NCBI GenBank assembly: GCA_014905825.1
Contig: JACGCN010000020.1
Location: forward strand, 806,001-870,000
Origin: Lyophyllum atratum
Taxonomy: Eukaryota > Basidiomycota > Agaricomycetes > Agaricales > Lyophyllaceae
DNA: 64,000 nt
Direction of reading: 5' to 3'
Position numbers and translations under genes: made by a program. Shown here in pieces: positions 18,601-45,600 of the stretch. Under the pieces are notes generated by a model. It did no database searches and was not told the origin of the DNA. It saw only the letters and a program-made list of their open reading frames with translations. Position 1 is the first letter of the stretch, and each line of letters begins with the position of its first letter.

Positions 18601-21600
18601 TCCATCAATGCAACGGCTAACAATTTACTTGCCAGACTTGTCCAACATGTTGTGGAACAGATGGGGAAACAGGCAGCAAGAAAAAAATTCGTCATCGGGA
18701 TGAAGAAATTCAGTGCGATGGTAGAAACGGCCAAAGAATACGAGGAGGAGTGCCGTACGGCGGCAGACGAGGTTACGGTAGGGCACATCGCATGTGTGGA
18801 TACGAAGCCGCTGACTTCGATACCTTGCTTCATAGCACAGCTCTTTGCGAGCGCAAGTCAGGCGGGATGAGAAGAGTCGCCTGGGCTCAAGCAGTTCGTT
18901 ACCACAGGACGACCTCGAGATTAGACTGCGGCGTCTTGAAGAACTTGAAACGGACTTACGGGCTGCAAATCTCCTCAGTTCACCTCAAATACTTCGTGAG
19001 ATTATCATCTCTTCGGATGGCGTTCATAATTTACTCAGTCCAAATCAGAGGATAGTCCCCGAGTTAATACGACATTGGCCGACCCTATTCTTTCGCCGAA
19101 TGCTGGGTCAGTGAACGTGTCTCCTCGAGTATTCGCCAGGACTGAGAGATGATTTAGAACGCCATATGAGAGTCCGATCCCTGATGTCGGTGATAGCTTT
19201 GATGAGCTACAGTCGGCAGGAGTGGAGGGGAAACCCCTGGTTTACGGGATAGCGCCAGTAGACTTGGACCATGTGGACCCAAAGGTCAGTCTCGTCAAAC
19301 GACGAATAACCCTCCTACTAACATAATCGTCTTTAGATTGAACCCTTGGTCGAAAGGCTGGAAGCAGTCTTCCGAAATAAGGAGGAGTTCAAACGACTTC
19401 TGGCATGTCGGAACACAAGTGCTCAGCGACTCCTAGATACATTTCAATGGGTATGTTCCACCACCTCGAAAAAGATATCGATGAGATTCTCATGAATGCC
19501 GTTAGCTCCTGGATAGCCTTGAAGCACTTCCACCAGGCTTCCACCGCCAACTTATCCTTGTGACGCAGTGGCTTTCTCGGAGGTCGAGCCTATATCCTAC
19601 GTGTTACGAATTGAAAGATGTAACCTCTGTTGGAGGACAACTGGCCGGGGGAGCCTTTTCTCGCATCTACAAGGGAACGTTTCGGGGCCAGCCAGTGTGC
19701 TTGAAGGTCGTCAAAACAGATTTGGATCCGGAATCCCAAGAGGGGCATTGGTTGAAGGTACATTCCGCTCCAGTCCTTATCTTCGTAAACCAAGACTCAT
19801 GACTTATCGCAAGGCATTGGCGAAAGAATCTATCCTTTGGGGTCAGTTATCGCATCCCAACCTTCTTCCCTTCTACGGAGTATATCGCTTCAACGGCGAC
19901 TTTGCGTTCGTCGCTCCCTGGATGGAACATGGCACAGTCGTTCAATATCTTGAGAACCATCCAACTTCAAATCGTGTACTTTTGGTATGTGGGCTCACCC
20001 ATGGTGATATCTGTAAAAGAATCATGTTAACCAAAATTTCCGCAGCTACTCGACATAGCCCGAGGGCTCCAATTTTTACATGGGCTAGGGGTTATACACG
20101 GGGATCTAAAAGGGGTACATACCATAATGCATTGTTCAATGTGACTCCTCGCTAACATATGGATCATACAGCTAAATATTCTAGTCTATGGTTCGGGAAG
20201 AGCTTATGTTGCCGACTTTGGGATCTCTGGTATCTCCGACGAAACTAAACTGGCATGGACATCCCTAACCTCATTGTCGTCGAGGGGAGGCACAGCCAGG
20301 TTTCTAGCACCCGAGATTCTACGCCCGAAGATCGACGATGACGTGAAGAATACTAAAGCCACCGACATCTATGCTTGGGCCTGCGTTGCCTACCAGGTAG
20401 GCCGGAACGTTGACACCATCCATCTTTATGGTAGTTAACCATGTCCAGATTCTCGCAGGGAAACGACCGTTCCATGAAATTAAGATTGGCGGCATGGTCG
20501 AAATGGCAATCGCTGAAGGCAAGCACCCCGAGCGGCCTCCGGCATCGAGTCCTAGCTGGAGTGCTTGGGGACTCACAGAGGACATCTGGTCTCTGATGGA
20601 GAGTTGTTGGTCCACTGAGCGTGCACAGCGTCCTACAGTCGACGAGGTCGTCAGTCGCTTGACGGCCATGCTACGCCCAGAGGATGTGCAACTCGATGAG
20701 CGTGATATGGCGCCTTCCTCAACCCAATTTCGGGAGCTAATGGGTCTAGAGTTGAAACCCGACGAGATGATGATTGACGATTTCGAGGATATCCTACGCA
20801 CATCAGACCCGTTCGCTTAATCTGTAATACTTGTATTAAGAGTGCTGCCTCTGCTTCATTTAAATCAGGCTATGTAACCAATTATTCGCGAACCCATGCT
20901 CTGATGAGATCAAAGATGGTTCGCGAACACGTCTCTAATCACAAGGACGGCAAATTAGAGGGGGGTTCGCGAATAGGTTCACGAACCTTCCTTCCCACGA
21001 CATTTGGGTCGCTCCCGCCAGCCGCATCGCGCCCTCCACGTGCACCGCCACTCAATAAGCTCCGCTCGTCGTCGGATACAGCGATCAAAAACTTTCTTTT
21101 TCGGTCAAAACTTATTTTCAACCTTTCAGCCTGATTTCGTCCATCTCCTGTTCCTCCACATTTGGGGCGGCCTTCAATGGCAGGTGCGGGGCTGGATGCA
21201 TTGAATGCACAGTAGAACACAGGTGGTACACAGTCGGACACAGGTGGCACACAGGTAGGACACGTCCACCACGAAATTTAAATTCTTGTAGAATACTGCA
21301 GAAAATCAGTCGGGAAGCCTGAGAATATAGTCTCTTTGTATCTGAACACTGTCTGCAAGATTCTATTGGTATGTGGAAAGTGGAATACTGCAACCTATCA
21401 AGCACAGTGGTAGCATACAAGTGGTACGCAACCATCAACAGACTTCGAGATCTCATATGTATTTGTACTCGGGAGTCTGCAATAAGTAGTTGGAAACAGT
21501 CGGAAACATGCAAAGTAAAACACAAGTTTTGGGGATTATTTGGAGAGATCCCTTCATCTTAATCACTCAACAGACAGGAAATGTGTGGTTCAGCTTATTT

Positions 21601-24600
21601 TAATATCTTAATCACCACCAGGTATAATCAACGAAGTATTACGAGCTTCGTCGTCGTTGTTTGCGACCTTGAGGAAGCGTGTGAAATCATCTCGGCAACA
21701 ACCGAGACGCCAATTCGAGTTGCCACGTAACCCTCATCCATCCACTACCATCCACCCCACCTCTCCACGCTCGCACAAATCGAGGCCAGAACTTCCTGTA
21801 GGTCAGCCCTCGTTGCATATTGAAGAAGGTCACTAACCTCCCATCTTCCCTTATTCCAGCCGATGTCGCAGTTAGTCTTCAGTCTGGACCAATCCCCCTT
21901 GTTAGTGGTCGTCATGGGGTTGTAAGGGCAAGGCTGGGGCGGATCGATGGCAGGAGGAGGGTTCGGAGGGTTCGGCGGCCACGGTTGAGGGGAGGGATGC
22001 TGATGCGCACGAGCAGGCAGCCCAGGCGGTGTCGTGCTGCTCACGAACGGCATTGTTGGGCGGGGTACGGTTCAATTTTACCAGAAGACGTCGAGAATGC
22101 CGAGAAGGCTGACGGGGGGAGTTTAGACCTTACACACTATAGCTGTAGATACAACTAATACATATAATTTCTACCATGCATCTATCTGTTGTTCCAGTAT
22201 CTATGCAGGCAGGAGGGGATTCAGGTGTGCCCATACAACGATGTGAAGCGTGAATGTCTAAATGGAGTTTGCCCAAATGAGGAAGTGGCGCCGCCGCCGG
22301 TCTGAACAGTGAGCTCGAAGGTAAGAGGGGGGCCTATCCAAATCGGGGTATACAGGCGGGACTGGGTGTGTGAGAAACTGTAGCAGCCTTCTAAAGCAGA
22401 GCATTCTTCGCGAATATTGCCCTCTGATCAGAGGCGATGTTCGCGAAACATTGCTCTGAGTTAGAGGCATGTTCGCGAACCCTATCTGATGTCATCAGAG
22501 TGTGGGTTCGCAAAGTCACGCCAACCACAGGTGTTTAAATACGGACGTGAGCCATCCTTCGTCCTTCACAAATCGATACATCCTCTCTTCACATCCCAAA
22601 ACCTCCCAATGCCTGGCACCCGCTCAAAGTTCGCGGTCGAGCTCTCAAATAATTCCTGAGACTTACATGTGATGTAGGTATCCCTATGGAAGTCCTGCTC
22701 TTGAGCAAGGCGACAGCGTCGATGAACTAGACTTGAACGGTGCGGAGCAGAAGCTCCCAATTGTTTATGGGAGACTAGAGGTGGACTTGGGCAATGTGGA
22801 CCCCAAGGTAAGTCTCGTCAAGCACTCGTTATTCCTTCCCCCCCATAATCCCTGGTAGATTAGACCTCTGGCCGAAAGGCTGCAAGCACTCTTCCGAAAT
22901 AAGGAGGAGTCCAAACAACTTCTGGCGTGTCGAAATTCCAGTGCCCAGCGACTTCTAGATATATTTCAACGGGTACGTTTCCACCACTCCAAAAATATAT
23001 GGCTGAGATTCTTATGAGTGTCATCAGCTGCTGGATAATCTGGATGCACCTCCGACAAGCTTCCACCGGCACCTCATTAAGAACGCACAGAGGCTCTCGT
23101 TCAAGTCAGGCCTATATCCCACATGTTACGAATTGAAGGATGTAATCACTACTGGACGAGTGGGAGTCGCCGTGCGAGGCTGTGCTGACATCTACACAGA
23201 TACCTGTGCCAGTCTATGCCAGCCAAACACCACTGACAGGTTGCCCAAACACCACTGACATGCCATCCAGACACATCTGACATGTCGGCATGGTGGGCAT
23301 CCACCATATTCATCCACTCGGCCTGTATGCAACGTAGTCAGTATATGGCAGTTATCCCCCAAATTTAAAGCGAAAAATGGTGGACAACTCACCATAAGTC
23401 AATTGTTAAAAAACAATTGATACTTAAAAGGATTGAACCCACAATCTGTTGAGGACAGAGGTACAGAACAAACCACGTCTACTTAACCACTAGGCTACAT
23501 GACCATGCCTATTTCATGCACATACCCAAATACGCTTGGCTTAGATCCATGGCGACTCTGCTGAATAGCTACGGTAAGGCAGATGTTCGCCATATTTCAT
23601 AGGTCTTACAGCAATGTTGACTCGAACCACCGACATGCTGGAGGTGATTCCTCGCTACATCACCAGTTTCTGCAGGTATGGTGAGTATCCTCCGGGAACT
23701 TGGATGTGGTGAATTCTCGCTGTGTTACCTATTTCCGCAGGTATGGTGAATATATGCCAACCTCTTGGTTTTAGTGACATCTCACCACGTTCTTGATTTT
23801 TGGCATTATGGTGACTATCCTCCAGGATTTTGTCTATGGTGAATCCTCACCGTATTACCTATTTCTGCAGGTATGGTGAATATCTGCCACCCTCATGCTT
23901 ATGGTGAATTCCCACTATATACCCTATTTTTTACATTATGGTGAGTATCCTCTGGAATCTAAGTTATGGTGAATTCTCACTGTGTTACCTGTTTCTGCAG
24001 ATACAGTGAATATCTGCCACCCTCATAGCCATGGTGAATTCCTACCGTATGCTCGATTCTTTGCAATATGGTGAGTATCCTCCCGAGTCTTGTATATGGT
24101 CAATTCTGGCCGTCTGATTAGTATGGTGGCTTAGTATTTAACTATGTACAGCTAAACGCTCTAATCCTCAACCTATTCCAAACCGAGAGAAATACCTTGG
24201 TGTACATGATTGCTCGCGCCTGCCCCATATAACTGACTGATTTACGGATTCTCTTGATTCCTCCATTCCCGCACTCCGCCGCACTTGAATTAACCAATGC
24301 CAACCGTGGATCCACGGCCATATACGTCTCCAGAAATGCTGCAGGTGCACACTTTTTGTGATCACTTGCATGAAAGATGTCGATTCCATACGTGCTTTCT
24401 GCAAAAAATGCTGGCTCCCGAATCAAGCAATATGGGCCCAATGCACATGCAAAGTCGTAGATGATACGTTTTGGCGCTATTTCCCATCGTGTGTACATTG
24501 CAGAGAAAACATCGTTTCTTCCTTCGCCCTTCGGAATGAAATGGAAACCGTAGCACACACTGTGAGTGCACCAAGCTGCCAGAATACCACCAGTTAATTT

Positions 24601-27600
24601 CTTTGCACCGTACTGAGCATAGTATTTTGAGCATTTTGCACCGCGATTGTTGCTAGTTTCAGTTCGAATGTCGTGCTTCAGATTTTCATAAACAGGTCGG
24701 TGTCGAATCTGAGGCAGGCTATAACAGCAACCGGTCTATAACAATTAATCAGAATGAGGTGTCGTAAGTGCAAATAGGAAGGTGTTGAATGACCTCTCGC
24801 CAGTCTTCCTCTACAATAGAAGTCGTATGCAAGCTATCTTGAGCTGCTTGTGACATCACGGAACCGAAAACTTCAGAGCCACGATGGTGCAGCCACTGAC
24901 ACAAACCAAGTATTGAGGCAGGGTATTTTTCGTCGTTATCATGATATTTCAGGACTTGTAGGAGAACTGGACAGTTTATCATCTCTGATGCGGCGGCATG
25001 ACATGGCTGTTGGTTGAATGAAGCCAGTTGGTCGAGTGCAGTTTTATTGAGCATCTGAAGTACAGATTCGTCTGCCGCAAGCTGTACTATGTCAACGTCG
25101 TAATGCAAAATGAAGTGGAAGAGAAGAACCTGGATGAATAATTTTTTATATACTGAGGGGGGCGTCGTGCCGATATAGACTGCCGCTAGCCCAAAGTGTT
25201 GGTCAAATAAAGCTGCTAGGGAGCCGTTCACCGCCGCCAGGTCTGAAATTACTTGAGGGATAGAAGTGACCCGTTCCACCTCTGCCTTAGATGCAGCCTC
25301 TGAACGCTTCCTCTCTCTGAGTCCTTCATCGTCTTCTGAGTCATCAGCAGCATTCTGGGATGTGAGACGAATCCCGCCAGCACCCCTGACCACCAGACGC
25401 AAACGCCTCCGGAGCTTAGCATCATTTAAGAGCTGTTGCTTCCAAATATACCGGTTCTTCCTGACAGGGGAATTGTTTGCGTCGGAAACGGTAGGTGGTC
25501 GTAACGTTGGCAACAGATGCTTCTTGTTGAACCCGACTGTGACGCCATCCCATACCACGTCCTCTGGAATAGGCCCACATTTCTTGCACCGCATGTCATT
25601 GCTAAAGTCTTGCAGGTCCACATAGGCAAACCAAGCCGCACGGAAAACTTCTTCCGTAACAAATGGTGCAGATGAATTGTTCGCACCGTACCGGCGGCTG
25701 AGAACTGTCACCCATGCCGTAAATGGGGTTTCAGATGAAGTGTAGACACTGGTGTAATCATCGAGAAGCTCGTGGGTAAAGAGGATGCGGTTGTTGAAGT
25801 TGAAGATCCCAAGTCCACGAGGCTCAGGGCCTATGAACCGTCGAGCACGTCCAGCGCAGGTTGAACAGCTTTGTACTTGGATACGACTTTGGAAGGCCTC
25901 CGTCAAGCCATAAATGGTACAATCCCTCACAATGATTGGGTTCTGAGGGCTGTAATGGGTGCGGGTCGGTCCACAGGGACATGTTGAAGTGAAATCCAGA
26001 TGCAGGAGAAGTGGGGCCTGCCTGCATGGGTTAGGTCGAATATAATGGGGAACGTCCGTGTCTAAAGCCGCCCAGATGGGTGGTACAATGGGCAAGTATG
26101 AGATTGAATTATTTCGTCGAAGCTTTCGCGGTGTCATTACTAGAAATAGGGACATTAGCAGAGTTCAGCGCCAGGATTGTAATTCATCACTAACCGGCGT
26201 CTAGAACATTAAGGTCTATAGCCATATCTTCACGGCTTCCGTTGGTCGATTCAAGGCCTAAAACCCGCAGAAGCACCCTCCTTGCATCCGTAATGTGGAT
26301 ACAGTTATCCTGCACATCCTTCGTACATTTCCAAGAACCCCCTCCCCTATCGTCACCGTCATGCATCACGACTGCACGGCTTTTAGCAGTTCCCGATCTT
26401 GAGCTTACTGAAAAATAGTTTATAAACTTCTCACCGCCACCAGGCTGTCGCAAGAAGAGGATGGCGGAGGCTTCACTATCTTTCGGGAGGGTTGGTTCGT
26501 ATTCCCCTTTTCACAAGCACATGCACTCACCTGCAAGGGCGTGTTTGTCTCCTGGAAACTCTTCCTCTCCGTAATTCTCCACGAAACGCTGGTGGACACA
26601 CACTCCATCTCTCCTACTCCGTTTGCAGTAACAGCCAACGACGGTTTTAGTCCCGATCTTTGTGCGCTCCAGATGATACCAAGATCGCTAATCACAAGCT
26701 TGTTAATGGCAAAGAGAATTGATGAAGATTGTGTACATACCATGCCCAATGCACTTTTCGAGTCCCAGCCCTGTACAACGAAGACATTGCCGTACAGTTG
26801 GACCACACTAACACCTCCAGTCCAGACCAGATCCACGTACGTCCAAAAGTTCTGTAGATCATCGATACTGACACCGTCACTCCTTGTCAATTCCTCGTCA
26901 CCCTCAGCCAACGACCCCTCAAGGTCTGGGTGTTCAATTTCGTCTCCAAATGATGAACCATATCCATCATCTATGGTTGTCGCACTGCCATCAAAATCAA
27001 AGCACTGTACTCCAGACATTTCTAGCGCAGACGAGCCACCGGCCTTGGGTGGTGGGCGTTTTTTCTGCGTCTCATTCCGTGCCCTGCTGGGGACTCCTAC
27101 CCGGCGGCGTTTCTGAGGTGATTCCTGGCGCGAGCCATCTGTCCAAAGTCCTCCTGTGATTTGAGGAAGGTTGACTTGGTTATTTCCGCGAACTGGTAGA
27201 ACAATCGGAGCAGTCTTGGGCGGTGGTTTAGGCAAGATGATAGACATAGTATAACATATGGTGGGTCTTTGCTATTTCCACAGGTGATCATTAAAGATAC
27301 GTGGTGAGTCTTTGCCATTCCTGCAGGCGATCGCAAACGGTGGTGGTCCGCCGACATATTTCTCCTCCTCGCCTTAATTTTTTCACATAGCACCAAGGGA
27401 TATCACGCTATGGCACCACTCCCTCGAAAGTCCCCTCGAAAATATTCCCCCTCAAAGAAAGCCATCTCCACTGACAAAGCCACAACTTCTTCCAAGAAAC
27501 AGTCGACGCTACCACAGACAAAAAAGGCCAGAGGGCCACTGCGGTGTCAGCGGTGCCCTGATCATCCCCTTCTGAAGGAATGCCCTGTGCACAGTGCAAA

Positions 27601-30600
27601 GCGCAAGAGGCCTACTACAGTAAGTCCAATGCCACCATCACCGCGCCTTCGCCTCACAGACTTCCCTTAAACAGGAAAATCCTGCTTTGGACCCTCTAAC
27701 CCCACAGCCCCCTTCTATACCACCTGGCACTGTCCTTGACCAGGACTGCCTGACCCCACAGGCGTCGGAGCCCCCGTCTGAACCCCCCAGCACCATTCCT
27801 GACCAGGAAGAAGAGAACTCAGAGTCGAACATCCACCCTGACCTCCGTACGCCGCGTCGACCTCACCCTTTTCATGGGCCACAGATCCCTCGCCTCAACC
27901 TCTTTCCCCAGTTATCTTCAGGGAGGGACTATAGCCCTGTCGCTCAACAAGACATGGGAGTAGGAACCCCTTCTTCCTCCCCCGTGTGTTTGCCTGGGAC
28001 CCTACCACCATCTTCCCCACCCCCTTCCTCACCGGTTATGTCTTCGACTCTTCTCTCTAGAGATTCTGTGCATTCATCGCCCTCTCCTGGAACCCGTATT
28101 CGCCCGACTGCAGCCAATCCATTCCACGGCATGGTTGAGGGCGCCATGCAGGGCTCGAAACAGGTAGACATCGTCCGTCAGCACGAGCCTCGCCCTCCTG
28201 CCACTGTCCTGAGTGCTGCATCTCGTCGATTTCGTGCCGAAATTCGGGATATTATTGAACGTGTATGTGTACAGTTTACTACTTGCGGCGGTGCTAGATG
28301 ATGCTAAATGCTCAAATTATTTATTAGTGCGAACGTCTTTCCGCAGAGACCAACTGCTGGCTGTTTGTTGCTGGCCAGCACTCCCAAGCCGCATCAAGCA
28401 ACTCATTCTACCATTACGCATCCCCTAACTTGCGACAGGATGCTTACCCACAGACGTCTGAACTAGTCAACAATTTTGGTGCAGTGGTCGAGGCGCTCCT
28501 TCTATTGAACAAACAGAAGGTTATCGAGCTCAATATGCGCTGTGGTAGAATGGAGAGGGAAAAGATGGCGACTGAGGAGGAAGCAAAACAAGTGCGTGCG
28601 GAACTTGCGGCCAAGGCCGAACAGGCAGCCCTCCTGACCAGTATCTTGGAGCGCGTGCGTAGCGGAGCGCTACCCTTGCATGAAATTCCAGCCGGTTTAT
28701 TGGAATAGATAGCCGACAGCAATATCGGGAAGTGCCACGCGTGTGCGTAGCGGAGCGCTACCCTTGCATAAAATTCCGGCTGGTCTAATTGGAATAGATA
28801 GCCGACAGCAATATCGGGATAGCCGACAGGTCCACTATATCAGGCCGAATTTTTGAATGAATAATATATCACTGTGATTCAAATCCCCCAGCAAACTGCA
28901 TGGCTGAAAACGAAGCTCAGCAATCTCCACAACCAACCACAGAAGGTTAGTACGACTTACATCTGCTTGCGAGTTACTAGCTGAAATACAAAAGTTCTGC
29001 CAGCAGACAAGGGAAAGGCCACTAACCCGCACCCCATCAGTCCTGCCGGCGTCGTAATCGAAATCCTCGGAGCTAAATTGTGTCAGCTCAATGTCGCTTC
29101 CGATTGCAAATATTGCGATGTTGCGACGTTCCGGCAAGAATGGCCCCTGTTTCCGGCACAGGAGTTATTGGCTGGCATGAGGGAAGATGAGGATGTGGTG
29201 CAATGGACGGAATCGGGAACGGACCGTCGCCACATGATTTGTCGGGCCTGCATTCGGGGCTGCATTCAGTCCATAATCGACGAGCGGCGCACATGTTCAG
29301 GCGGCTGGCATTCAGGCGGCTGGCATTGGGGGGTGGAAGGGTGTGATGGGTGTTCACCCGGCTGGGGAGAACCAGAGCATTTGGGGGTGGAAGGGGATGG
29401 GGATGGGGTGGGGTGGGGCTTTTCCGACGCCGCTGATGAGGAAGGCCCTTCCGATGCAGTTGATGATCCATGGGGCACGGGGGGCGATTAGTTCATATTA
29501 GTGTGGCGTTCGTACAACCGATCCAGGGATGTTTCCATCAAATTCTGTTTGCTTGGTGCGGGGTGGGGCACTTCCGACGTAGTTGATGGGGAGGACACGT
29601 ATTCAAAGTGGTTCGGACGCCCTATACCAGTAGATTGGGAGGCACTAGGCATTTGATATGTATTAGCGTTGATTTTGAAATCAATGGAAATCAACAAAAT
29701 CAATGACAATCAATAATCAATTCAGATTTCGTGTTCTCACATTTCTTCAAAAAGACTTAAGCCAAGCGCTAGAGGCTGAGATAAAACATATTGACAATAC
29801 TAACATGATCAATTTAAATTAATTGAATCAAGAAAGACTTAGCGTTGAAGGCTTGTACTTACGACGTAAAGGAGCGGTAAGGTAGAGTATCAGGCCGGAA
29901 CCTTAGTAAACATATTCACCCCCTGCTCCCATCGCACCCCATCTGCAAGATCTACTTCTAAGCGGGCTAAACGCTTCTCCTTCGGTGTCTTCGCCTTCAT
30001 GCCTTGGCAGTAGGACCGAATGGTCTTGAAGTTGTAGGCGACGTACCGAAAAAGGCCACCTGCGGCATACTGTGTGAAGGACATGCGAGTTTCGTCCGGA
30101 GCAATGGGGCAGTTTCCGTGTTCGACAGAGCCAGAGGGAATGAGAATAGTTGCGCCGGGAGGGAAATCGATGACAACTCTGAGACCGTATAGGATCAGCT
30201 GGCCACCAGTGCGCGGGTTGAAGTTACCCAGGGCGGTGATTGCACAGAGTCCGTACGGGAGGTTAGCGTAGTCGACGTGGCGCCAGGTGCAGGTCTGTGG
30301 GCCACAGTTGAATGTACAGGCGGGGAAGACACTATTCGAAAATGTGTGGTCCAGATGTGTGCAGGTGGTGAAGAGCGTCTGCAGAGTGGTGGCATAGAAG
30401 CGATAAAGCTTTGGGGCAAACGTGGCAAATGCACCTAGAGGGAATGTTGAACATACATATGAGAGTCATTAGCATGAAAATACTTACTTGATTGGAAGCC
30501 GGCAATGCGTCGAAGGTTGACGTCGCCTCGAAGGCGCTGGACTCTACGCTGCTCCTCTTTTTTCTCATGCTTGATGTTAACCGGTTGCTTAAACATAACA

Positions 30601-33600
30601 TGAGTACATGAGGCGTAGTTAGTGAGTTAGAACATACCGTCGTTCCCGTCCCGTGCGAAACACCGGTGGCGATGGCAAAAAACCGTCCACGGCGATGCTC
30701 CGTGGTATCATCCCCAATGGCCTGTTGGCGGACTTCGTCCATGATTGCAGCCGCGCCCTTGATAATGGCGTCCCAGTCCGCATCTTTGGGCCTTCCAGCA
30801 CCATTGATAATGGCCCGACGCTCGCTGTCCAGGAGGGAGAAGGGTGCACTGAAGAATAAGTAAGCAACAGTTCGTGTTGAGTAAAATAAGACTCACCCGC
30901 CCTCCCACTTCAAGTGGCGGAAGCCCATGTTAACAAAGTCCTCCACGCTCCGGTACTCCGGCGCTGGATCCCCACGCGTCCCCGTCCATGAGCCGCCCTT
31001 CGTCCTAGGTAAGCTCTTGGCATCAAGAGAAACATCGACTGGGTTGAAGAAGAGCTTCTCCTTGGCAGTGCGAGTCGTGCGTGTAGGGCGGTGGTAGGGC
31101 GTGGCGTCTTGGGCGGCCTGGATACGCTTTGAGCTACGGCGCTGTTTCTTCCGAGCAGCAAGGCGTCGGGCTTCGATGGACTGTCGAAGCCTAGCCCGGG
31201 TGATGGGGCTTAGGGGCTTTGGCACGTCGTCATCGATACCGTGTGGGATGTCGTCGCGGGCATGGATCAGGTCCTCAAGGTTATCGACAACCTCGTGGAT
31301 GATCCCACCAGTGTTGAACAATGGGGGGACGATGGCAGAGGGGACATAGGGCACGAAGCTCTGAGGATTGAAAGAAATCCCAGAGCGCGTCTGCGGCTAA
31401 GCAGTGAGCGACACATCACATACGGGCTGGGGGAACGTACCTGGCTGAGGCGATCCAGTATCTTGCGAAACATGTCCTGCGGGCGAAAGATAAATTAGCA
31501 AGAGTGTTCGCACAGGTAAACCACAGAAGAGACAAGGGGGCTGTGAGCGGAAGCGGCTGGGGGGAGTGGGGGGGAGGAGTTGGGCAGCCCACCGCCGAGG
31601 GCCCGTGGGTGAGGCCCGCGTGCAGCGTTGGAGCCCTTGGGAGATTCCCAATGCGCGTTACACCCCCTACCGCCGAGGGCCTGTGGGTGAGGCCCCACGA
31701 GCGACGAAGCATGTACCACGGCTCTCCCCTCGCTGCCGAGTGCCTGTGGGTGAGGCCCTACGCACAGCAGACCCCTTCACCGCCGAGGACCTATGGGTGA
31801 GGCCCCGCGAACGGCTCGAGGTCGTAGAGGATAGAGAACACCTACTCACGGGAGTGGGGGAGGATTCTAAGCAGAAGCCTCCAACGGCTCCTGCTTTTGA
31901 AGGCGGGCCCGGGATAATCGTAATTGCAGAGGCCGGCATGGCGTGCTCGAACACATGGGCGATCGGGGCGACGGTGTACGTGGAGCAGCCGCGATCGAGC
32001 CCTCCGATGGCAAAACGTTTGTCAGTGAAGATTGTGGTGAGAGCCTTGACCGCGCACCTGGACGCCGTCCTTCCCTCCCGAAGACCATCCTGCCATTGCT
32101 CACTTCCCACCATCAGGAGACGAGGCACTCAGAGGGGGAGACACCGAATCTGTAGGGGAATTCAGCAGCCATACGACTGACAAGGGGGAAAACATACCTG
32201 CTGAATTTCCAACCGCGAGGTTCTTTAAGCGCGTCGCTCGACTGGTTTGATCGCATGTGATAGGGCTGTTGCTACGGACCGACTGATGCGAAAAGAAAGG
32301 ACCCTACTTTTGAGAGATGACGTGATTCTGCCAAGAAGAAGCACATGGAACGTATGACTCACCTTCAACAAAAATAGACTCCCACTAAATTTATCCCAGC
32401 CGACGGGGGAAAAATAACGCGGCCATGAGCAGTATAAGCGCGTCGAAACCGTCGTTGAGTGAACGTGTCGGCTCTTCACCAATGCCAATGTCCGTCAGAA
32501 GAATGATGTCCGGCTACCTAAGCATGCGAGCCAGTGAGTCGAAACTACTTTACTTTAAACATAACATACCTAATGAATTGGCAGTAAATTATGTCGTAGA
32601 CGTGGCCAGTCTCGACCTGCCGATACCCGTTGATGACGCCTGCCTGATATGCCGGGTCATTCACAGGGATGCCGATGAAGAAAAAACCTTACTTTCTCTT
32701 GGAACCTGTCGGGACTTCGTCCTAATCAATCACGCGCTGCCATGGTTGGTGCAGGCATATACAAAAATCTTGAATCAGGATAGGGAGTTGATACTATGCT
32801 GGTGCCATACATGTAGTGAGCTTTGGGTACTCATCTAGATGGAAGAAGGACGGTACCTTAGAAATACACATTTACTCGTCCCATCTCGACCTCCCACCCG
32901 TCCCGAGATGCTGCCAGCCATCTCACTTAGCAAAGAAATCCTCGGGGGAAGTTGTCAAACACATCTCGTTGGAACTGGTATACATACAATGTAACTGACA
33001 TATATAACGTATTGCAGACAAGGCTCAAGGACATATGACTACTAAAGTGCTCGTGGCTAGGCGAATGTCAGTCTTGGCGTCTCTCTTCCCTTTACGGTCG
33101 CGAACAAGGCATTGGTCCTTTCCGAAATCCATGACCACGAACTCCTTACCCATCCAAACACCATCGAGAGCAGTAACCATTTCACCCTTGACTTCCGGCC
33201 GAATTGGACGTACATACTTGTCCGGCACCAAGAGCCTTTCCATATGGATTAGAACTTTAGCTTGATTGCCTTCAGTCCCGATCCACAGTCCCCGTTTGTC
33301 CTCGTAATCCCCGTTTTTGAAACCGGGGTCACGGAGAACAGCCTTGGTGTCGTGGATTTGGACTTTGATTCGTTTGCCGGTGAAAAGGGGTGATTCCATC
33401 CAAGGGCTGTAAGCTGTGCAAAAGAGCTGATTAGATAGTCAACGAGAAGCAAATGGGAATACCATACGGAAGGAAGAATTTGCACTTGGAGTTCGAGAGG
33501 AGGGGTCCCATGCAGGGCTGAATGCCACACTGGTGCCGGGCGGGAGGGGCGTTGACGGCACGAGAGGAAGGGTAGACTGGGGTATCACCATCCCCGATAA

Positions 33601-36600
33601 TATGGATTGCCGGCGGGTCATCTCCTCGATGCTCAATGGCGTGAAATGGGAGTCGTTGCTAAGTAGCGGTCAACATATTTCTATACCGAGTGGACGAAAC
33701 GTACATTAACGTTAGATGCGAGAGGCTGATGCGTTCCTGTCTCATCGTCGCTTGAACTTCAATAAGGACATTGTTGCCTTCTAAAGTAGACTTGATGATG
33801 GCTTCGTAGGCCTTGAGCTGGTGGTTTCTCATGACTCGAACATGCCGCCCGACGAGATGACGATGAGGATCCTTCGGAAACTCAAGTCTGGAGTTGTGAT
33901 GCGAAGATTCGCCTGAGTGCGTTATGAAAGGTAATTCGAAGAATTGAACGCAATTGTACGGGACTTGCATCTGCGTAAATGACGTGAGATGGATACTAAG
34001 CAAAAGTAGGTGAAAGGACTGACATGTTTCTTCGCCTTATGATCGTACAACGTCAGCATTTCCGGTGTCACAGCTACCACCCACCCCGTTGAACCTGAGA
34101 GTGTTCCGATGGTGACCTTGACTTGGTCCCCGACACGGAAATCCTTTCGTAGGGAGTCAATCGATACCGCCAACTGCAATTTATCTGGTACTGTACGAAT
34201 AACAGCTTCGTTGCCAGTCAGACTTTCGACTACGCCGAAGACACCCTGCGACTCCCCGTTCGCAACTATAACCGAGTCCCCGAGTACCAATTGACGCCTA
34301 GTCATCATCTCCAAGGTTCTTTGAAAGACATCTCGAGGAATGCAGCGAGCGTTTCGAAAGAGAGCGATTTCGTCCGAAGTCGGTATGGCTTCCTCTGGAT
34401 AAAAGTCGTTCGTGACAAATGACAGGTATCCATCCACGTAGACTGCACCCTTGAACAGCAGAACTTGATTCCTCCTCTCGACCGACTTCTCTCCCCAGAC
34501 CTCTATGACTTTCTTCTCATCGAACAGCGCCTGATCGGGACGACTACTTCGTGGACGTTTTACACGACGAGTCAGCCTGCGCTCTAGTCTGAGCCGAGGA
34601 ACGACCAGGACATCAGCGCCGTATGTACCCCCCCCGTGTTGAACTCCCGAACGTAGGCTAGATCACCTTGATACGGGTGCCGTGAAAGCCGTACCCAAGA
34701 CTGGTTGCGAGGCGTGAATAATGTCGGCTTTTTTATCCAGACCGACACATCCTCGGGGGCAATGACGTGCATCCGCTGTGGGTAGACATTGGATACTTCT
34801 TGGCATGCTGATTCGACGTCGCTGACGGTGGTAGCCTCGATGACGATCCAGCCGGGATGAGAGACTTCGCCAACGATGGACTTTACCGCCCAGCGACACC
34901 CACCTCGGATGATTTTAGCCATCAAGATGAAAGCCGCCGTTTCTTCATAGCCCGGCTGCGAAATGGTCAGTAACCAGTACAACATATGACTTCAATAAAC
35001 TGACCTTCACCGCTACCCTCCACAACTGCGGCCTTGGGACATCCAACAAACTTTCGTCGTCAACATAATCATGCTTGTTGTCGTGCTTGTTGTGGTGCGC
35101 CCGTTCGTGAGCACGAGTCAAAAACGACACCCAGTTGCCTTCAGCGGACGCGCGAGTATGCTCACGATAGAGCAGGCGGTGGGAGACGCGACTATCGGCA
35201 ACTACGGGTTCCTGGTCCTCCAAGAAATCATCTAAAGGGCGTTCTTAGTGGTCTGTCTCGGGGACACTGTATACAGTACGCACCTAACTCCTCATCATCA
35301 TCGTCTTCCTCACTCTCATCGTCGACCTCGGCCTCCAGGCTCAGAAATCGCCTCACGTCCTGCTTCGTGCCGCGTGAGTATAGATTCTGAGGCCCGGCAT
35401 GACTTGTACCACACCTCGATGCGCGGGCGCTTTTGACCCGTTCGTTGGGCGTCTACCGACTTCTGTAGTAACGTTGAATACATTTCATTGAGTTAGTATT
35501 AAGTTCCTTACTTCGTCAACATTGTCGTGCTTAGTTTCATTTGACAATATGTTGCCGTCTTCAGAGACGACCTCGACCGGGTGTAGTCCATTAGAGTCCA
35601 TACTAATAAGGTCTATGGTAAGGTACTGTCTAATCTAAAGGTATTAAACGCCTATAGGGACGGCGGGCGGGGATGGTAGTGGTACCAGGTCAAGAGCGAA
35701 ATATTGTAAGTCCGGCCAGGCGCCATCAGTTGGCGCAGCACGTTTGTTTAGGGTAGACACTTAGCACGTGCTGTCCCAAGGTGTCGCACCACAAATGCAA
35801 ACCTCACGAGGTCAGGTGCGATGGGTCTGGACTTGGTCTAGGCCAACATGTGTTGCGTCATCTGATTGATCAGATGACGCATCTCAGGTGACGCTGTTGT
35901 TCATCCAAACATTGAAACAAGCAGCCATCGCTTCACCTCCCCACCTCCACCACCACTTACAAGAGGATCGCGCCAAGGGAGACTCGAGCCCGGGACCCCC
36001 CACGGCGTGTCCCTCTTATCTCTAACTCCTACCACCACCCGTCTCGCGTCCGCCGCGTGTTTAGGAACTTTCACGGTAAAGTTCCAAAGTATTTTCTTAT
36101 TGTTCCAAGTTCTTATCATACTAATCCGTCTTGTCAAGGTTTTCAGATCCATTTTCCAGTCGTATCGATCAACCGACGAAGGGGGTTAGCGAGGGAAGGA
36201 CGGCAGACCCCTGGTGGGGGGAGCCGCCAAGGTGTGTACACTAGGCCCTGCCGGCATGTCATTTACTAAATATAATGCCTCCCTTTACAGGTTAGCTTTC
36301 CTAAAACACGGCGGAACGCCCTCCTCCCCTTGAAAGAGGATGTGAGACGCCCAATAACGACCTCAGGACCCGCGAAGACCCCCCCATTGCCGCTCTGACG
36401 ACGCCGTCGCCTCGCGCCTCCCTTCAGGGACGAAGCGGCCGGAACGGGGGCAGACCACATCGTCGGGCAGTACGATCTGACGGTACCTCCCTCACCTCAC
36501 TAGTCACGCACGCTTTCGCTGATGGATCCTTTCCAAAAGGACTGGGATGTCTCGACGGCGTGCGTAGCGCACCGCACGAAACACCCTGGGAACAGGGCGG

Positions 36601-39600
36601 TGGCTATCCGTGATGATGGGCGGGTGTGTGCCACCGGGCGGTGGGATGGGAGGTACGTCTCATGTTTCTGTGTATTGCTGATCATATAGGACATATAGAG
36701 AGGTCCAACCACTTATCGCTCGACGTCATTTCGGGGGTTGCCTGGGGCTAACGGGGGAGGTATGTCAGGTGTATCCATGGGTTCGTAACAGGGGCGGTGC
36801 GCCGTCTGCTTAAGTATATACCTAAGTAGAAATACAACAATATATTTTTATTTAATATGATGTATGCTAGGAACATGAGTTGGCGAGAACGGCCTGGCCG
36901 TCGCCGTTCGTCGACGATAAAGACGGTGACATGTGCACCTGAACAACATTGTAATTTCACGTTGGGTCGTGTTCACCATTCATCGACGACAAAGACCGTG
37001 CTGTGTTAGCTTGTGAATGAACTGATATTCACATCTCGAGGGCGGCGTTCATAACCTCTGTTCCGTGGTCCCCTGGCAAATAATGCCATGTTGTCTTAGA
37101 CAAATTCGAATTGACATTGTTCTCTATAGCATCAACCATGTTCAGGAACCTTTCGTATCTCTGAACCAATGTCCGATTGAGCCAACAGTGAGTCTCCTGG
37201 GGTAGTGATGGTAGAGTATAGTCGTTTTGATCGTAAACTTATCATAAACTTATCTCAAACTTATCAGAAACACGTCGCAAATTATGTCTTGTGAATAGGC
37301 CGTAACAGCAAGTGCTGTAGATCACAGCCCTTCTAGAAGTTTCTGGGTGGCTAGCAGTAGCAACGGTAGTGTATAACTGTTTTTATCCGAAACTTATCAG
37401 AAACGCGACTTTTGTGTTGCAATATTCCAAATCTTTTATTTTCTGTCAGAGTCGTACTGCTCGTCACTTCCGAACACCAGTCTTTTGCCTTTTACCCAAC
37501 TAGCCATTTGCAAACACTGATATTTCGCCTCTTACCACACACGGTGCTCCTCCCACGCCGTCTCATGGGTCGCCGAAGGAAGTATACAGATCAGGAGAGG
37601 AAGGAACGTCATAGAGAGGCATCGAGCCGGCACTACTGGAAGAATGCTGGAAAATATCGTGAAAAGGCACGATTAACAGCAGCTGCGTATGTCATTTCTC
37701 CTATTCTAAGATATAGACCTCATCTATCTAAACTGTAGCAGTCGTTTGGCAAAACGGAATATGCAAGACGGGGAGGGAAATGCTGTTCCTTCAAGAATAC
37801 CTCCGATAGTGGGAGCAGCATGCACTGTGGGTTCTTCGTGTCTCAATACGGAGAATGGACAGGGAAGTCCCCCGGTTGTGCGCAAGCATCGTAAAAAGCG
37901 GCGTCCTCCCATTTTTCCTCAAGACACCTCATCTGAATCCGGGGAGCATAGCGACAATATGCGGCCTCTACAAACGATACCTCCCCGATTTTATGCACGA
38001 ACTGGTACTTCTGCTGTTCCAACGGCTGCTCCACAAGCTAAATCAATTCATTCGAAAACCCCTGCTGTGCCAGCACCCGCCCTTCTTCCTCCATCCTCAC
38101 CTCTTCCTCCATCCTCGCCTCTTCCTCCATCCTCACCTCTTCCTCCATCCTCACCACCCACTGAATTTGACGAATTTGAAGAACGCGTGCCTGCCGTATA
38201 TGAATCTGGAGACGCTGAGGATGATGAGGAGTTTCTCCGACTATTGGGCTTCGTTTAGAGTAGGTACTATGATTCACTGTACATCTCAACAAAACCACAT
38301 ACTGACTGTGCAACATTCAGGAATTTCTGGACACAAACGACGACTGACAGGGAAGTAGGGCCTATTTTCGGCACAGATCAGATTGATGGAAACGCTTAAA
38401 ACCCTATATCAATTTCTCGCTTGGCAATAACCCCTTGACCGAACAAATCATATGCCCCGGCTCCGGCACTGACGGATCAGCTCACACTCTATCACATTAA
38501 TCTCAGCAAAGGCTAGCGCTTGCTACAAGTCTGATTAACATGTATCTAAGGTAGACCGTACCAGGCTAACGGCTGGAAAACCACTGCACAAAGGCCGCAA
38601 GCAGTGACAACCTGCTTGTGTTTAGAAGTTAGTCATGTCAGGGCCCCATCAGATTAAGTTGGCGGGGTGGCGGCCTCCCGGGATATATTATTTGAAATGC
38701 GAAGGCAACGAAAATCGTCTGATGACAGGAAGCACAAGGTTCATTGATTGGCCGGTTGAAAGAATAACAGGCGCGTCGGCAGAGCGCATCATATGAGATT
38801 GCGCCCCAAAGTAGAAGATAACTGGTCTTTCACCATATTCTGTTTGAAAGGACCGACTCGTCAAAAGAAGAGTTTTCAATGGAGAGTACGTGATAATTAT
38901 TGCAGAACTAAGACGCTCGCTGATAGGCACCACAGGAGTTGCAAAATTGGAGAAAACTATTGCTGTTCTTGAGACCAATGTGTCCAACGCACAATCAAAA
39001 TACGACGGTGTGATGGATAAAGCTGCAACTGGGGCAAAGGGCGGCAATAAGTGTATGGAATACATCAGCCTTGTTGAACATTCCTGACCAACCTTTAGCT
39101 ATGCAGACCAGGACGAAAAATGTTTTGGAGAAGGCCCGCAGTGAATGGAACCGGGCTAAGGAGGAGTTGAAGAAAATTCTCATGGAGGAGACGCCGAACG
39201 GTGGTGGCAGGCGTAATGCTTTCCAGGGTGAGAAACCAAATCTTAAGAGGAGTCGGGCGGGCAGCCTATCGAGTTTAACTGAAACAGATGAGGATAAGCC
39301 GGGAGAACATACCGCTGTATCTGCAGCTGCTGGAGAGGTTGAGGGAGGTGATGTAGGCACGGCCAATGATGGGGCTGAAGTAGGAAACAGTCCTGTGAAC
39401 GATATGCGGCCATGTAGCAGGGAGGATGGCACCGAGAACACAGCAATGGATGTCGATGCCGACGAGGGTGCAGCTAGTAATCCTTTGCCGGGAGAGGTTG
39501 CAAGAACCGTCTTGGACGAGTATAGCCAGCCGTCTGCGGCTGTAGACTCCAACATGGATTTGGTTGTGTCGGCGTCTGTCGACAAGGCTCTTTCTGGCGG

Positions 39601-42600
39601 TGTCATGGATGTCGGGGAGGGTGTGACGGGGAATTCCTTGCAGGGAGAGGTTGCAGGAACTGTCTCGAATGCATCCGCTGCTGGGGACTCCGAGACATCT
39701 GGTCTGCGCGTGGACTTGGCTGCGTCGGCCTCTATTGACAAGGCTCTTTTGGGTGGGGTCATGTTGGGAATTGAAGAGGATACAAAGGCAGCAGAGGGAG
39801 CAGTTCATGATGACGAAGATGATGAAGATGACGACGAAGAGGATCCACCAAGTAAAGTCGGCAGGCGGAAAGGTATGTCTGCACTCGACTGTCACTTATC
39901 ATCCATTTGATCGAAATGAAAACCCACTGTTCATAGATGTGCTAAACTCATATGAGAAACTGTCGGAAGAGGCGCAAGGGAAAAAAATTGGTACGGCTGT
40001 CATGTATCAAGTCGTGTCGGAGATGTTGTTAACCTTGATTCTAGGACGAGCTCGAAAGGAATTCCGCCGTTTCTTGCAGGACGAAAGAAAGGCTGTAAGT
40101 CCCGGAATCCGCAAGATGATCAGGGAGAATCAACACCTCCTTCCGGAAGCTGCAACTATATCCCGTAGCCTCGCTCTCCACATCCTCACCAGCAACCGGG
40201 ATAATATCCAATGCCTTTATCATTCGAAATCGAAGTACTTCGCCAATTCCGGGCAGGGTCCTTTTGCAATAAGTGGGACGCCGGGGCCGAAGAGGACGGG
40301 TCCAAATGAAAAGGCGGCAGAGGGTTTCCTCAACTGTGGATGCCCAGTGGACGCCGCATTATTGGACTTCCTTATATGGAAGGTTTGGAGAGTTACCCTT
40401 CGTGCTCCAGGAAAGCCGACTTTATTCGAGGGCATGGGGTCGCAAATCCTTGAACCTCGCACCCGTCTGTTTATCAAGCAGGGACTTCTCGACTATGCAG
40501 GTTTGCAGCTGGACGATTTTTACACAGGCCCAGGAGGTGCTTTACTGGAAAAGGACCCTGAATTTCCTAAATTCGGGGGACCGGAACATCAGTTGCACTT
40601 AACGGAGACGTCTCTCAACGTCCTCATGCAAAGGGCCCATCACTTGAGGGTAGGTTTGGGATTGTTGAACCAAGTAGTGCCGGGCGTTCCTGATAGCCAA
40701 ATCGACCCCAATCTTGCATAGAAATACATGTGTAGCCGGCGTGTTAATAGGGTTGTGGAAATGTTAAGCATGAGATGTCGTGTGCAAAAAATGGGAACTA
40801 GCCACTAAAATTATGAAACTTGTGAAAGTAACTCAGTCATAGTTGAATAGAAAATTTGTAACGATTGAATTCACGGTATAAGTGCAATGAGACGCGCTGC
40901 CTTCATGTAGGGGCATATGGTACAGCATCAACGGTATAGATTTGAGGGTGGAAATCCGGTCGATTTCTAATCACCATCACTCGCTCAATAGTGTAAGGCC
41001 GTTGTGGGTGGGCAGCATCATAGAGCTGTACTATTGCTCCAGTGTGTTGGCACCAGAATTCTGAGGTGTTGCAGTTCCTTGTAAGCAAGCTTCAGTATGA
41101 ACAAGTTAAGGAACTTACGATGAGTCGGGGCTAGCCCTTGGAGAACCAACAGCCATTCTGGAGCAGGGTTAAATGTTATGTTGAACATCGCCTATCAAGG
41201 GTAAGGTATATATCACCTGTTCACAAATAATTCATGCATCCTTACCGTGGACAAAGTAGGAAAGACTGCGTATTAGAACGGGGCTTGATAGAGTTGAATT
41301 CTGGTGCCGATGCTTGGCTAGGGTAACGGTTGCAGCGCAGTTTGTATGTCTGGTGTAAATTCGAACCCAAATGGACTTACAGAACGACAGATTGATTGGT
41401 CCCTTTTGGCGAATCATCGGGTTTCACCGAGTTCGATGCTGGAACCGGATATGCGCCGGATCCGAGTGAGGCACAACACCAGAACCGTGCGGGTGGCGGA
41501 TATTCACCATAATGCAAATAATTGAGAACATGGTGGGATTCCACCAAAACTGTGTGGGTGGCGGATACTCACCATAATGCAAATAATTGAGAACATGGTG
41601 GGATTCCACCAAAACTGTGTGGGTGGCGGATACTCACCATAATGCAAATAATTGAGAACATGGTGGAATTTCACCATAACCGTGCGGGTGGCGGATATTC
41701 ACCATAATGCAAATAATCGAGAACATGGTGGGATTCCACCAAAACTGTGTGGGTGGCGGATACTCACCATAATGCAAATAATTGAGAACATGGTGGAATT
41801 TCACCATAACCGTGCGGGTGGCGCATATTCACCATAATGCAAATAATTGAGAACACCGTGGGATTTCACCATAACCGTGCGGGTGGCGGATATTCACCAT
41901 AACGCAAATAATCGAGAACATGGTGGGATTTCACCATAACCGTGCGGGTGGCGGATATTCACCATAATGCAAATAATTGAGAACATGGCGGAATTTCACC
42001 ATAACCGTGCGGGTGGCGGATATTCACCACAATGCAAATAATCGAGAACATGGTGGAATTTCACCAAACCGAGAGGGTGACGGATATTCACCACAATGCA
42101 GAAGATTGAGAACATGGCGGAATTTCACCATAACCGTGCGGGTGGTGGATATTCACCATAATGCAAATAATCGAGAACATGGTGGGATTCCACCAAAACT
42201 GTGTGGGTGGCGGATATTCACCATAATGCAAATAATTGAGAACATGGCGGAATTTCACCAAACCGAGAGGGTGACGGATATTCACCACAATGCAGAAGAT
42301 TGAGAACATGGCAGAATTTCACCATAACCGTGCGGGTGGTGGATATTCACCATAACGCAAATAATCGAGAACATGGTGGGATTTCACCATAACCGTGCGG
42401 GTGGCGGATATTCACCATAGTGCAAATAATCGAGAACATGGTGGGATTTCACCATAACCGTGCGGGTGGCGGATATTCACCATAATGCAGAAGATTGAGA
42501 ACACCGTGGGATTTCACCATAACCGTGCGGGTGGTGGATATTCACCATAACGCAAATAATCGAGAACATGGTGGGATTTCACCATAACCGTGCGGGTGGC

Positions 42601-45600
42601 GGATATTCACCATAATGCAAATAATTGAGAACATGGCGGAATTTCACCAAACCGAGAGGGTGACGGATATTCACCACAATGCAGAAGATTGAGAACACCG
42701 TGGGATTTCACCATAACCGTGCGGGTGGCGGATATTCACCATAATGCAAATAATCGAGAACATGGTGGGATTCCACCAAAACTGTGTGGGTGGCGGATAC
42801 TCACCATAATGCAAATAATTGAGAACATGGTGGAATTTCACCATAACCGTGCGGGTGGCGGATACTCACCATAATGCAAATAATCGAGAACACCGTGGGA
42901 TTTCACCATAACCATGCGGGTGGCGGATACTCACCATAATGCAAATAATCGAGAACATGGTGGGATTCCACCAAAACTGTGTGGGTGGCGGATACTCACC
43001 ATAATGCAAATAATCGAGAACATGGTGCAATTTCACTATAAGCAACGGGGTGGCAGATGCCCCAGTACTGACGTCGGAGTGGAATACATGGTGGTTTCAC
43101 GCCATATTGGCATGTCACACGCGTTTTCGTGACCGGCCGGTACTGTTCGTTTGACATGCCAGTGGTGTTTCACTGACTGGCTCTTCATCACCTACCCCCA
43201 TCTACAAGGGAACATTTCAGGGCCAGCCGGTGTGCTTGAAGGTCATCAAATCAGAGTTACATCCAGAACCCCAAGTGCAAGCGGAGCTTTGGTTGAAGGT
43301 ATCCTCTGCTCCAATCCTCATTCACTCAATACAAGATTGATGACTTTTCTTAGGCCTTTTCGAACGAGTCTATTCTTTGGGGTCAGCTGTCGCATCCCAA
43401 TGTTCTTCCCTTCTACGGAGTATATCGCTTCAACAAATATGTTGCTTTGGTCGCTCCCTGGATGGAAAATGGCCACGTCGTTGAATATCTGAAAAAGCAT
43501 CCAACTTCAAATCGTGTACTTTTGGTATGTGGGCTCACCTATGTTAATATCTGTAAAAGAATCATGTTGACCAAATTTCCATAGCTACTCGACATAGCCC
43601 TAGGGCTCCAATTTTTACACGGGCTAGGGATTATACACGGGGATATGAAAGGGGTACATACCGTAATGCATTGTTCAATGTGACTCCTCCCTAACATATG
43701 GATCATACAGCAAAATATTCTAGTTCATGATTCGGGAAGAGCTTATGTCGCCGACTTTGGGATCTCTGCTATTTTCGACGAACAAATTCTGGAATGGACA
43801 TCCGTGTCCTCAGGCTCGTCGAAGGGAGGCACAGCCAGGTATCAAGCACCCGAGCTTCTACGCCCGCAGACCCCCGATGACGTGAAGAATACTAAAGCCA
43901 CCGACATCTATGCTTGGGCCTGCGTTGCCTGCGAGGTAGGCCAGAATCTTAACAGCATCCATCTTTATGGTAGTTAACCATGTCCAGATTCTCGCCGGAG
44001 AACGACCTTTTGATAAGATTAAGATTGACGGCCTGGTCGAAATGGCAATCGCCAGTGGCAAGCGACCCGCGCGGCCTCCGGCATCGAGTCCTAGCTGGAG
44101 TGCTTGGGGACTCACAGAGGACATCTGGTCTTTGATGGAGAGTTGTTGGTCCACTGAGCGTGCACAGCGTCCCACAGTCGACGAGGTCGTCAGTCGCTTG
44201 ACCTCCATGCTACGCCCAGAGGATGTGCAACTGGGCCCTGGCTGAGCGTGATATGACGCGTTCCAAAACCCAATTTCGGAAATCAGCACGTCGAGGGTTG
44301 AAACACGACGAGTTGACGATTGACGTTTTCGAGGATATCCTAGGGACAGCAGACCTGCGAACCATTTGATATGTGATCCCTGTATCAATCTAATTCTATC
44401 ATCCGACTTTCTTTTCCTAGGCTGAACGCATGGCAACCGTACAATGGAGCTTTCTTATCTGTTACCTCCAAAACCAAGGGCGTTTCAGCAGCGTTACCAA
44501 ACAGCCTCGAAGTACGAATACCCAAAGTTGTCAATGGCCCAATAGGGTTCGAGAACACCGGTTACTGGGGTAAGACGAAGTACAGACCGACTTTTCTGGG
44601 ATCGTAGAAGCTGACTTGGATACATATAAGGCATCAAGATTCAGGAGGGCTGGACGTACAAAGGATCCTTTTATGCCAAATCCGACACATTCAGCGGAAA
44701 GGTTACAGTATCCCTGAAATCTGTCCGGGGGACCGTGTTCGCATCGAAATCAGTCGGAGGGATTTCTAAGAGTTGGAAGAAGTTCACCTTTGAGTTCAAT
44801 CCTGCGAGCTCTGCGCCAAACGACGAAAATGTGTTCAGTGTTTTGTTCGACGGAAAGGCTGCCGCTGGGAAGACAATTCATTTTGGGATGTTCTCATTGT
44901 TCCCACCGACTTTCAGAGGGCGAGAAAATGGTATGCGCATCGACTTAGCGGAAGCCCTGGCTGCCACAAGGCCGTCAATATGGCGGTTCCCAGGGGGGAA
45001 CAATCTTGAGGTACTTTCCTTCTCACCCGATTATTGTCAATGACCAATCTTGTTTTTAGGGACACAGTATTGATACACGTTGGAAATGGAACGAGACCAT
45101 CGGACGGTGAGCTCATAATGGCCAGTTCGATGGACTGTACTAATCCTCAATACAGTGTCGAGGATCGACCAGGTCGCGCTGGAGACTGGGGTGCGTCCAT
45201 CTAGACATCGATTGTTATAAGGCTCATCGCGAGGACACAGGATATTCGAACACGGATGGGCTTGTGAGCACAGCAACAAAAACACGTCTGATTATTATTT
45301 AAGCATCCTTAGGGGCTCCTTGAATACTTAAACTGGGCAGAAGACTTAGAAGCCGTGAGTGATTTGTGCCCAACATCGCATTGCTTTCACCAACTCCCAA
45401 TGGCTTAGGAACCCATTCTCGGTAATCATCTAAGTACTGGTGGACGATCAATGAGAGCTGACTTTTATCTATAGGAGTATGGGCCGGGATATCGATAGCT
45501 AACTATTCTGACTTCGCTACGTGGCCCGTGGTGCCCGAACAAGATCTTCAACCTTATATCGAAGATGTTCTCGCAGAGATCGATTTCGTAATCGGTGACG

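Follow-up and report, generated by a model that had tools for sequence, protein, structure and literature searches.

A complete 20-kb KDZ-superfamily transposon of the CxC4 class in Lyophyllum atratum with TET/JBP-type and SPT5-like cargo genes

The window analysed here is a stretch of 64,000 bp of contig JACGCN010000020.1 of the mushroom Lyophyllum atratum, and coordinates given without a contig name are window positions. It is part of the contig designated C65 in the searched genome of 64.8 Mb and 151 contigs. A complete KDZ (CxC4-class) DNA transposon of 20,002 bp occupies positions 23197..43198, within the kinase gene designated kinase B. Its termini are CAGATACC...CACCTACCCC, and the 8-bp target-site duplication CATCTACA (an unstranded feature) adjoins it on the left (23189..23196) and on the right (43199..43206). 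From left to right the element comprises three subterminal repeats, a short array of 65-bp repeats, a CxC4-KDZ transposase gene, a gene for a TET/JBP-type dioxygenase, an SPT5-like gene, a gene designated X, a long array of 65-bp repeats and the mirrored subterminal repeats. An earlier note on this DNA had claimed the length, the exact ends and a perfect 8-bp duplication, and all three were found as claimed.

The earlier note had also proposed a search for copies with the same ends and other flanks, and this search returned three of them, on contigs C72, C119 and C130. The start base found with the left end was identical in all copies and the right end recovered the same three, all terminating in CACCTACCCC. 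Additional matches of the right end were tandem repeats (also on C24), a lone 94-bp end on C35 (80 %) and kinase paralogues. Each copy has a duplication of its own. The C72 copy is flanked by GAGGGCTC/GAGGGCTC, the C119 copy by CGAAGTTC/CGAAGTTC, and the diverged, 25-kb C130 copy by CGAGACCAA/CGAGACCAA plus an additional C on the right, so that the last duplication may be 8 or 9 bp. The 8-bp duplication is exact in three of the four copies, the fourth being 9 bp with one extra base, and the element boundaries and the duplication are confirmed to the base. The lone right end (C35:1209223-1209316) is of the same kind and also terminates in CACCTACCCC; no partner end or duplication was found within the 9.5 kb examined. 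A likely relic of a sister element lies at C24:597618-615000 and contains 65-bp repeats and pieces of gene X and SPT5 (about 75-95 %) in a rearranged order.

In-frame rejoining of kinase B on removal of the element, as claimed before, was reproduced: the flanks joined over one CATCTACA read ...C-A-D-I-Y-K-G-T-F-Q-G-Q-P-V-C-L-K..., and kinase A reads RIYKGT at the position where joined kinase B reads DIYKGT. Kinase A is an uninterrupted paralogue (19258..20809, + strand) with one CATCTACA at 19664-19671 and served as the control for an empty site. The kinase alignment contained five paralogue loci, taken from 10 rows besides the insertion site itself, and all five were uninterrupted across that site. 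A single CATCTACA was present at the exact site in three of them (kinase A on C65, C69 and C87), the other two having diverged there to CATTTACA and ATTTACA. An empty kinase B allele was looked for in the genome and was not found.

Three 22-bp subterminal repeats resembling CCAAACACCACTGACATGCC occupy 23223..23288 (+ strand); counted from the left end, their starts are at 27, 49 and 71 nt. Mirrored counterparts at 43109..43172 (- strand) start at 27 and 71 nt when counted from the right end, where no repeat reached the threshold at the 49-nt position. The earlier note had placed an inverted core 29 nt inside both junctions, and AAACACCACTG does start at the 29th nt from each end, being found on the + strand at 23225 and again at 23247, and as its reverse complement at 43160. 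The threshold for the 22-bp repeat was loose (13 of 20) and gave 12 matches in the interior (17 kb, both strands), so the register at the ends weighs more than single matches. The inverted alignment of the left and right ends scored 52, the highest score among 500 shuffles being 32, and the terminal inverted repeats are imperfect and composed of short repeats. The left array of 65-bp repeats (23627..24113, - strand) contains about five units and is inverted with respect to the right array (41477..43056, + strand), which contains 24 units in the C65 copy, 23 in C72, 12 in C119 and 26 in C130.

The transposase gene (24142..27247, - strand) was modelled with five exons (27247-26741, 26687-26531, 26479-26195, 26139-24794 and 24735-24142) and GT-AG introns, giving a product of 962 amino acids (aa) with no internal stops. 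The main exon matches the Pfam family CxC4, 'associated with KDZ transposases', with 161 bits, and the protein is of the KDZ type with a CxC cysteine cluster, its KDZ domain scoring below the threshold, as it does in the homologues P0022 (18.9 bits) and P0024 (18.5 bits), which also have CxC4. The last exon is 59-72 % identical to the six compared CxC4 proteins that contain that part, and the motifs WDGV, YDFA and AECG were assigned by us from the sequence as candidates for the D, D and E residues. The CxC4 domain was present in 119 of the 120 transposase relatives listed, and the best-scoring named relatives came from the same fungus (P0001, 99 %) and from other mushrooms. The ratio of nonsynonymous to synonymous divergence (dN/dS) relative to the C130 copy was 0.07 in both exons compared. 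The element had been called KDZ/Zisupton-like; assignment to the KDZ superfamily (branches K, D and Z) holds, and 'Zisupton-like' was not retained.

Gene X (38938..40718, + strand), a relative of the 542-aa protein P0126, is a usual neighbour of CxC4 transposases and was found within 25 kb of 12 of the 14 CxC4 loci, where about 1.3 % per locus is expected by chance. For the linkage counts one row was kept per locus (TET 59 of 62 rows, SPT5 24 of 29, CxC4 14 of 15, gene X 17 of 29 and KDZ 65 of 109), and the chance figures assume independent loci, an assumption that copies of one family violate. The 12 linked CxC4 loci, compared by score and frame length, represent about five families of near copies. 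Gene X had no Pfam match below E 0.16, and its AlphaFold model, built with four sequences, had a mean predicted local distance difference test (pLDDT) value of 41.8, too poor for a fold search. Since gene X travels with the CxC4 transposase class, it probably encodes an accessory transposition protein.

The TET/JBP-type 2-oxoglutarate dioxygenase gene (29890..31396, - strand) has its catalytic core at 29890-30465, its upstream exons being approximate. The HxD...H triad and the accompanying arginine (H63, D65, H116 and R127) were invariant in all 13 aligned sequences, eight of which matched the Tet_JBP profile at E 0.1; R127 we take to be the arginine that binds 2-oxoglutarate. Between this copy and that on C130 the core has a synonymous divergence (dS) of 1.85 and a nonsynonymous divergence (dN) of 0.066 (dN/dS 0.04). 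No TET match was present within 30 kb of seven of the 14 CxC4 loci. A tree was built from 19 of 20 rows, namely this copy, the C130 copy and 18 loci from the 62 TET matches in the genome, the short row C72b being dropped by choice; the label KDZ in this tree (14 rows) means 'not CxC4', a KDZ match being present within 15 kb for nine of the 14. The present TET and that of the C130 copy cluster with five TETs from non-CxC4 loci (support 91/93), and an ordinary KDZ match lies within 4 kb of four of these five. The TETs of three other CxC4 loci fall outside the cluster. At least two changes were needed in 98 % of 200 bootstrap trees, and the strongest branches force no more than one. Evidence from this tree for movement of TET from one KDZ lineage to another is moderate. 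In the available part of PMC12730594, no transfer between superfamilies is given for AG-type TETs, a type to which the TET of this element may or may not belong.

The SPT5-like gene (33922..34991, - strand) has a continuous frame of 356 aa in the C72 and C119 copies and is split in the window. It encodes an NGN domain followed by SPT5 KOW domains (Spt5-NGN 31.1 bits, cut-off 22.4; KOW2_Spt5 38.7 bits, cut-off 28.9). Among solved structures the protein matched SPT5 chains best (274-315 residues aligned, lowest E value 2e-22); plant RDM3 (RNA-directed DNA methylation 3) was matched too (E 5e-6). Twenty-two NGN matches in the genome exceeded the cut-off, and the best two, C13:586700 and C78:58402 with 70 bits each, are probably the host SPT5 gene in two haplotypes. 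This likely host SPT5 matches the SPT5-like protein over the KOW part with 34 % identity; the 20 other matches are weaker relatives, and TET genes lie close to some. A TET match was present within 20 kb of eight of the 24 SPT5-like loci (chance expectation about 3.6 % per locus), three of the eight being copies of this family and four others looking like copies of one more.

The gene is contained in an unstranded 2.9-kb block (32943..35832) that recurs with 95 % identity at loci on C66 and C57 and, in two pieces, with 94-96 % identity on C92. The protein is 97 % identical to those of C66 and C57, compared with 95 % for the whole block in DNA. At the C66 and C92 loci a strong KDZ domain (194 bits, of another type than that of this element) lies 3.4-4.0 kb from the SPT5 gene, and none of the KDZ matches listed is beside the C57 block. 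Visual inspection of the block edges in this element revealed neither inverted repeat nor target duplication; in rusts TET transfers between superfamilies are likewise described without repeat or duplication at the edges (PMC12730594, available part). Just outside the right edge of the block at C66, C57 and C92, 47 bp of its sequence are repeated in inverted orientation. Since three further loci share the block at about 95 % identity, and a different KDZ transposase is adjacent at two of them, the cargo seems to be modular and exchanged between KDZ lineages within one genome.

The C65, C72 and C119 copies differ by 54-59 substitutions in 18.2 kb when the right array is excluded (99.7 % identity), and the changes form a star pattern with 25, 30 and 29 private to each copy. 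As the three copies differ by 0.3 %, transposition is, judged by this divergence, recent. C:G>T:A changes, polarised by the majority of the three copies, were found in single copies at 22 of 2,034 CpG bases versus 20 of 7,193 other C/G bases, a 3.9-fold enrichment (odds ratio 3.9, p 1.6e-5). This is the usual mark of past methylation and suggests that the copies were methylated at CpG after insertion. The C130 copy is 95 % identical to the C65 copy over the left 3.9 kb and 86-75 % further in, its right side being mostly 82-84 % and the SPT5 gene unmatched, so different parts of the element have different histories. Between these two copies synonymous divergence is 0.03-0.12 in the transposase exons but rises to the value given above for the TET core, which indicates that the C130/C65 element is a mosaic.

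Two of the copies contain inserts. The C72 insert, of 590 bp at element position 2172 (window 25368) in the transposase, has the ends TGTAACA...CCTTACA, a 5-bp duplication GAATC and tRNA-like stretches repeated at both ends, and looks like a solo long terminal repeat (LTR). The C130 insert, of 6.6 kb at element position 3911-10546 (window about 27101), is an element with short terminal inverted repeats (TAGTGATTTAAAGTC), in which 213-bp direct repeats, probably of an LTR retrotransposon, are nested; a relative of about 640 bp without the nested part was found on C35.

Contig C1, apparently the other haplotype, is without a 28,291-bp segment (window 16107-44397) containing both kinases and the element. 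C1:3966000-3975999 is collinear with the window at 96 % over 8449-16106 and then at 99 % over 44398-45542 (97 % over 44400-51100), and two bases replace the segment at the junction, with no target duplication. Because C1 is without the whole 28.3-kb segment, it neither supports nor refutes an empty kinase B allele. The C1/C65 pair and the equal-scoring SPT5 pair on C13 and C78 suggest that both haplotypes are represented in parts of the assembly. Host genes near the element encode Raptor (56706-60410), a weak ATG13 match under the cut-off (54897-55532), a DUF5695 protein (13285-14931) and a sugar transporter (10206-10706).

KDZ and the TET expansions are said to have been defined by Iyer in 2014 (PNAS). 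The rarity of complete KDZ elements, claimed in the earlier note, did not hold up: PMC12810828 (KDZ1-3) and PMC12730594 (TET-bearing families) describe complete ones in the parts available, and what is unusual here is the cargo and the CxC4 lineage, not the completeness. In the Kyakuja families of Agaricomycetes (Kojima 2025, PMC12730594, available part) a KDZ transposase and a TET/JBP dioxygenase are likewise combined in a complete element from mushrooms. Kyakuja-1/2_LB are described there with 7-bp duplications, CA..TG ends and no inverted repeats, whereas the Lyophyllum element shows none of these features, having 8-bp duplications, CA..CC ends and imperfect inverted repeats besides the CxC4 transposase and the SPT5 cargo. 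The words SPT5 and KOW are absent from the main text of that paper. Zisupton and Dileera, as far as described in the same source, have 8-bp duplications as here, Zisupton with terminal inverted repeats, whereas those of the present element are imperfect and made of short repeats. The Cryptococcus elements KDZ1-3 (PMC12810828) are complete KDZ transposons like this one and were observed to jump, with duplications of 8 bp for KDZ1 and 4-8 bp for KDZ2/3; they differ in their size of about 9-11 kb, their CxC1 domain and their inverted repeats of 139-241 bp, and TET or SPT5 cargo is not named in the available part of that report. The NGN and KOW domains are common to the SPT5-like protein, eukaryotic SPT5 and plant RDM3, but the 356-aa frame of the element contains NGN and KOW only, is multi-copy and lies inside a transposon.

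The element is not a new class, and complete KDZ elements with TET have already been published (PMC12730594, available part). The open-licence PubMed Central literature, supplements and Iyer 2014 excluded, yielded no description of a complete element of the CxC4 class that combines 8-bp duplications with SPT5 cargo, nor any report of a transposon-encoded SPT5. As far as searched, the ends of a complete CxC4 element, the SPT5 paralogue as cargo and the shared 2.9-kb SPT5 block are therefore new.

Very likely, the element is a complete KDZ-superfamily transposon (CxC4 class) that moves by cut and paste, was mobile recently and carries a modular, probably anti-silencing cargo. This reading starts from the ends, the 8-bp duplications, the four copies, the open transposase frame, the inverted subterminal repeats and the three cargo genes, all of which are present in the DNA. 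At each end the transposase would bind the mirrored 22-bp repeats and possibly also the 65-bp arrays, and it would excise the element and reinsert it with an 8-bp stagger, as the anatomy and the jumping Cryptococcus KDZ elements (PMC12810828, available part) suggest; the gene X product would assist. The TET-type dioxygenase probably serves as anti-silencing cargo by oxidising methylated bases on element DNA. The SPT5-like protein might keep RNA polymerase II elongating over the element, or might interfere with host SPT5-dependent silencing. For both proteins the sequence families, selection and linkage are shown, and both may help the expression of methylated copies. It is rather unlikely that Lyophyllum KDZ transposons trade a two-part anti-silencing kit, in which TET would demethylate and the SPT5 paralogue would replace or poison host SPT5 so that silenced copies are transcribed.

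Several observations weigh against the interpretation as a mobile element with anti-silencing cargo. The last transposase exon matches Pfam KDZ with 16.1 bits (cut-off 26.6). The TET protein matches Tet_JBP in Pfam with E 3.3e-5 and 23.6 bits (cut-off 34.9), and comparison with solved structures, as a single sequence and as a 13-row profile, gave nothing credible and reached no TET structure. Twelve of the 24 SPT5-like loci, two of which are probably the host gene, are without TET, KDZ, CxC4 or gene X within 30 kb. None of the four copies seen has every gene open: SPT5 is split in C65, its frame being broken by a one-base indel, the transposase of C72 is interrupted by the insert, C119 has one stop more than C65 in the stretch of exons 2-3, and C130 has, besides the unmatched SPT5, its insert in the first transposase exon. 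The CpG decay implies that methylation of the copies was not permanently prevented by TET.

Duplications of 8 bp occur in several superfamilies, and the element could belong to hAT or another superfamily and have only acquired KDZ-like genes, to which the weak Pfam KDZ score would also conform. This is very improbable, since the sole transposase found is the CxC4-KDZ protein, which is encoded close to the left end and evolves under purifying selection, and no hAT match was obtained in the 14 of 61 element open reading frames (ORFs) scanned with Pfam, the remaining 47 being shorter or overlapping. It is improbable, if less so, that the SPT5 block represents a second mobile element, or its remains, inserted into the first. 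The recurrence of the block at three loci, two of them beside another KDZ transposase, its absence from the alignment with C130 and the inverted 47-bp piece beyond its right edge would fit such nesting, whereas its edges here have neither inverted repeat nor target duplication and both scanned block ORFs are SPT5-like and not transposases.

TET and SPT5 might also be passive passengers with no part in escape from silencing, which is somewhat unlikely. SPT5 is unmatched in C130 and split in this copy, and the seven CxC4 loci without TET point in the same direction; against it stand the TET dN/dS of 0.04 between copies, the higher identity of the SPT5-like protein than of the block DNA at C66 and C57, and the linkage of TET to SPT5-like loci above chance, a count that includes copies of this family and apparently of one more.

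With several copies and ends known to the base, the transposon can serve as a reference for KDZ elements of the CxC4 class, and its ends can be used in a mini-element for a transposition assay. A transcription elongation factor joins the genes carried by transposons, and it does so beside a TET gene in a genome with CpG-decayed copies of the element. If the kit reading is true, this would be the first mobile element known, as far as searched, with its own SPT5-type elongation factor, and an SPT5 paralogue that aids silenced DNA would allow a direct test of transposon resistance to transcriptional silencing.

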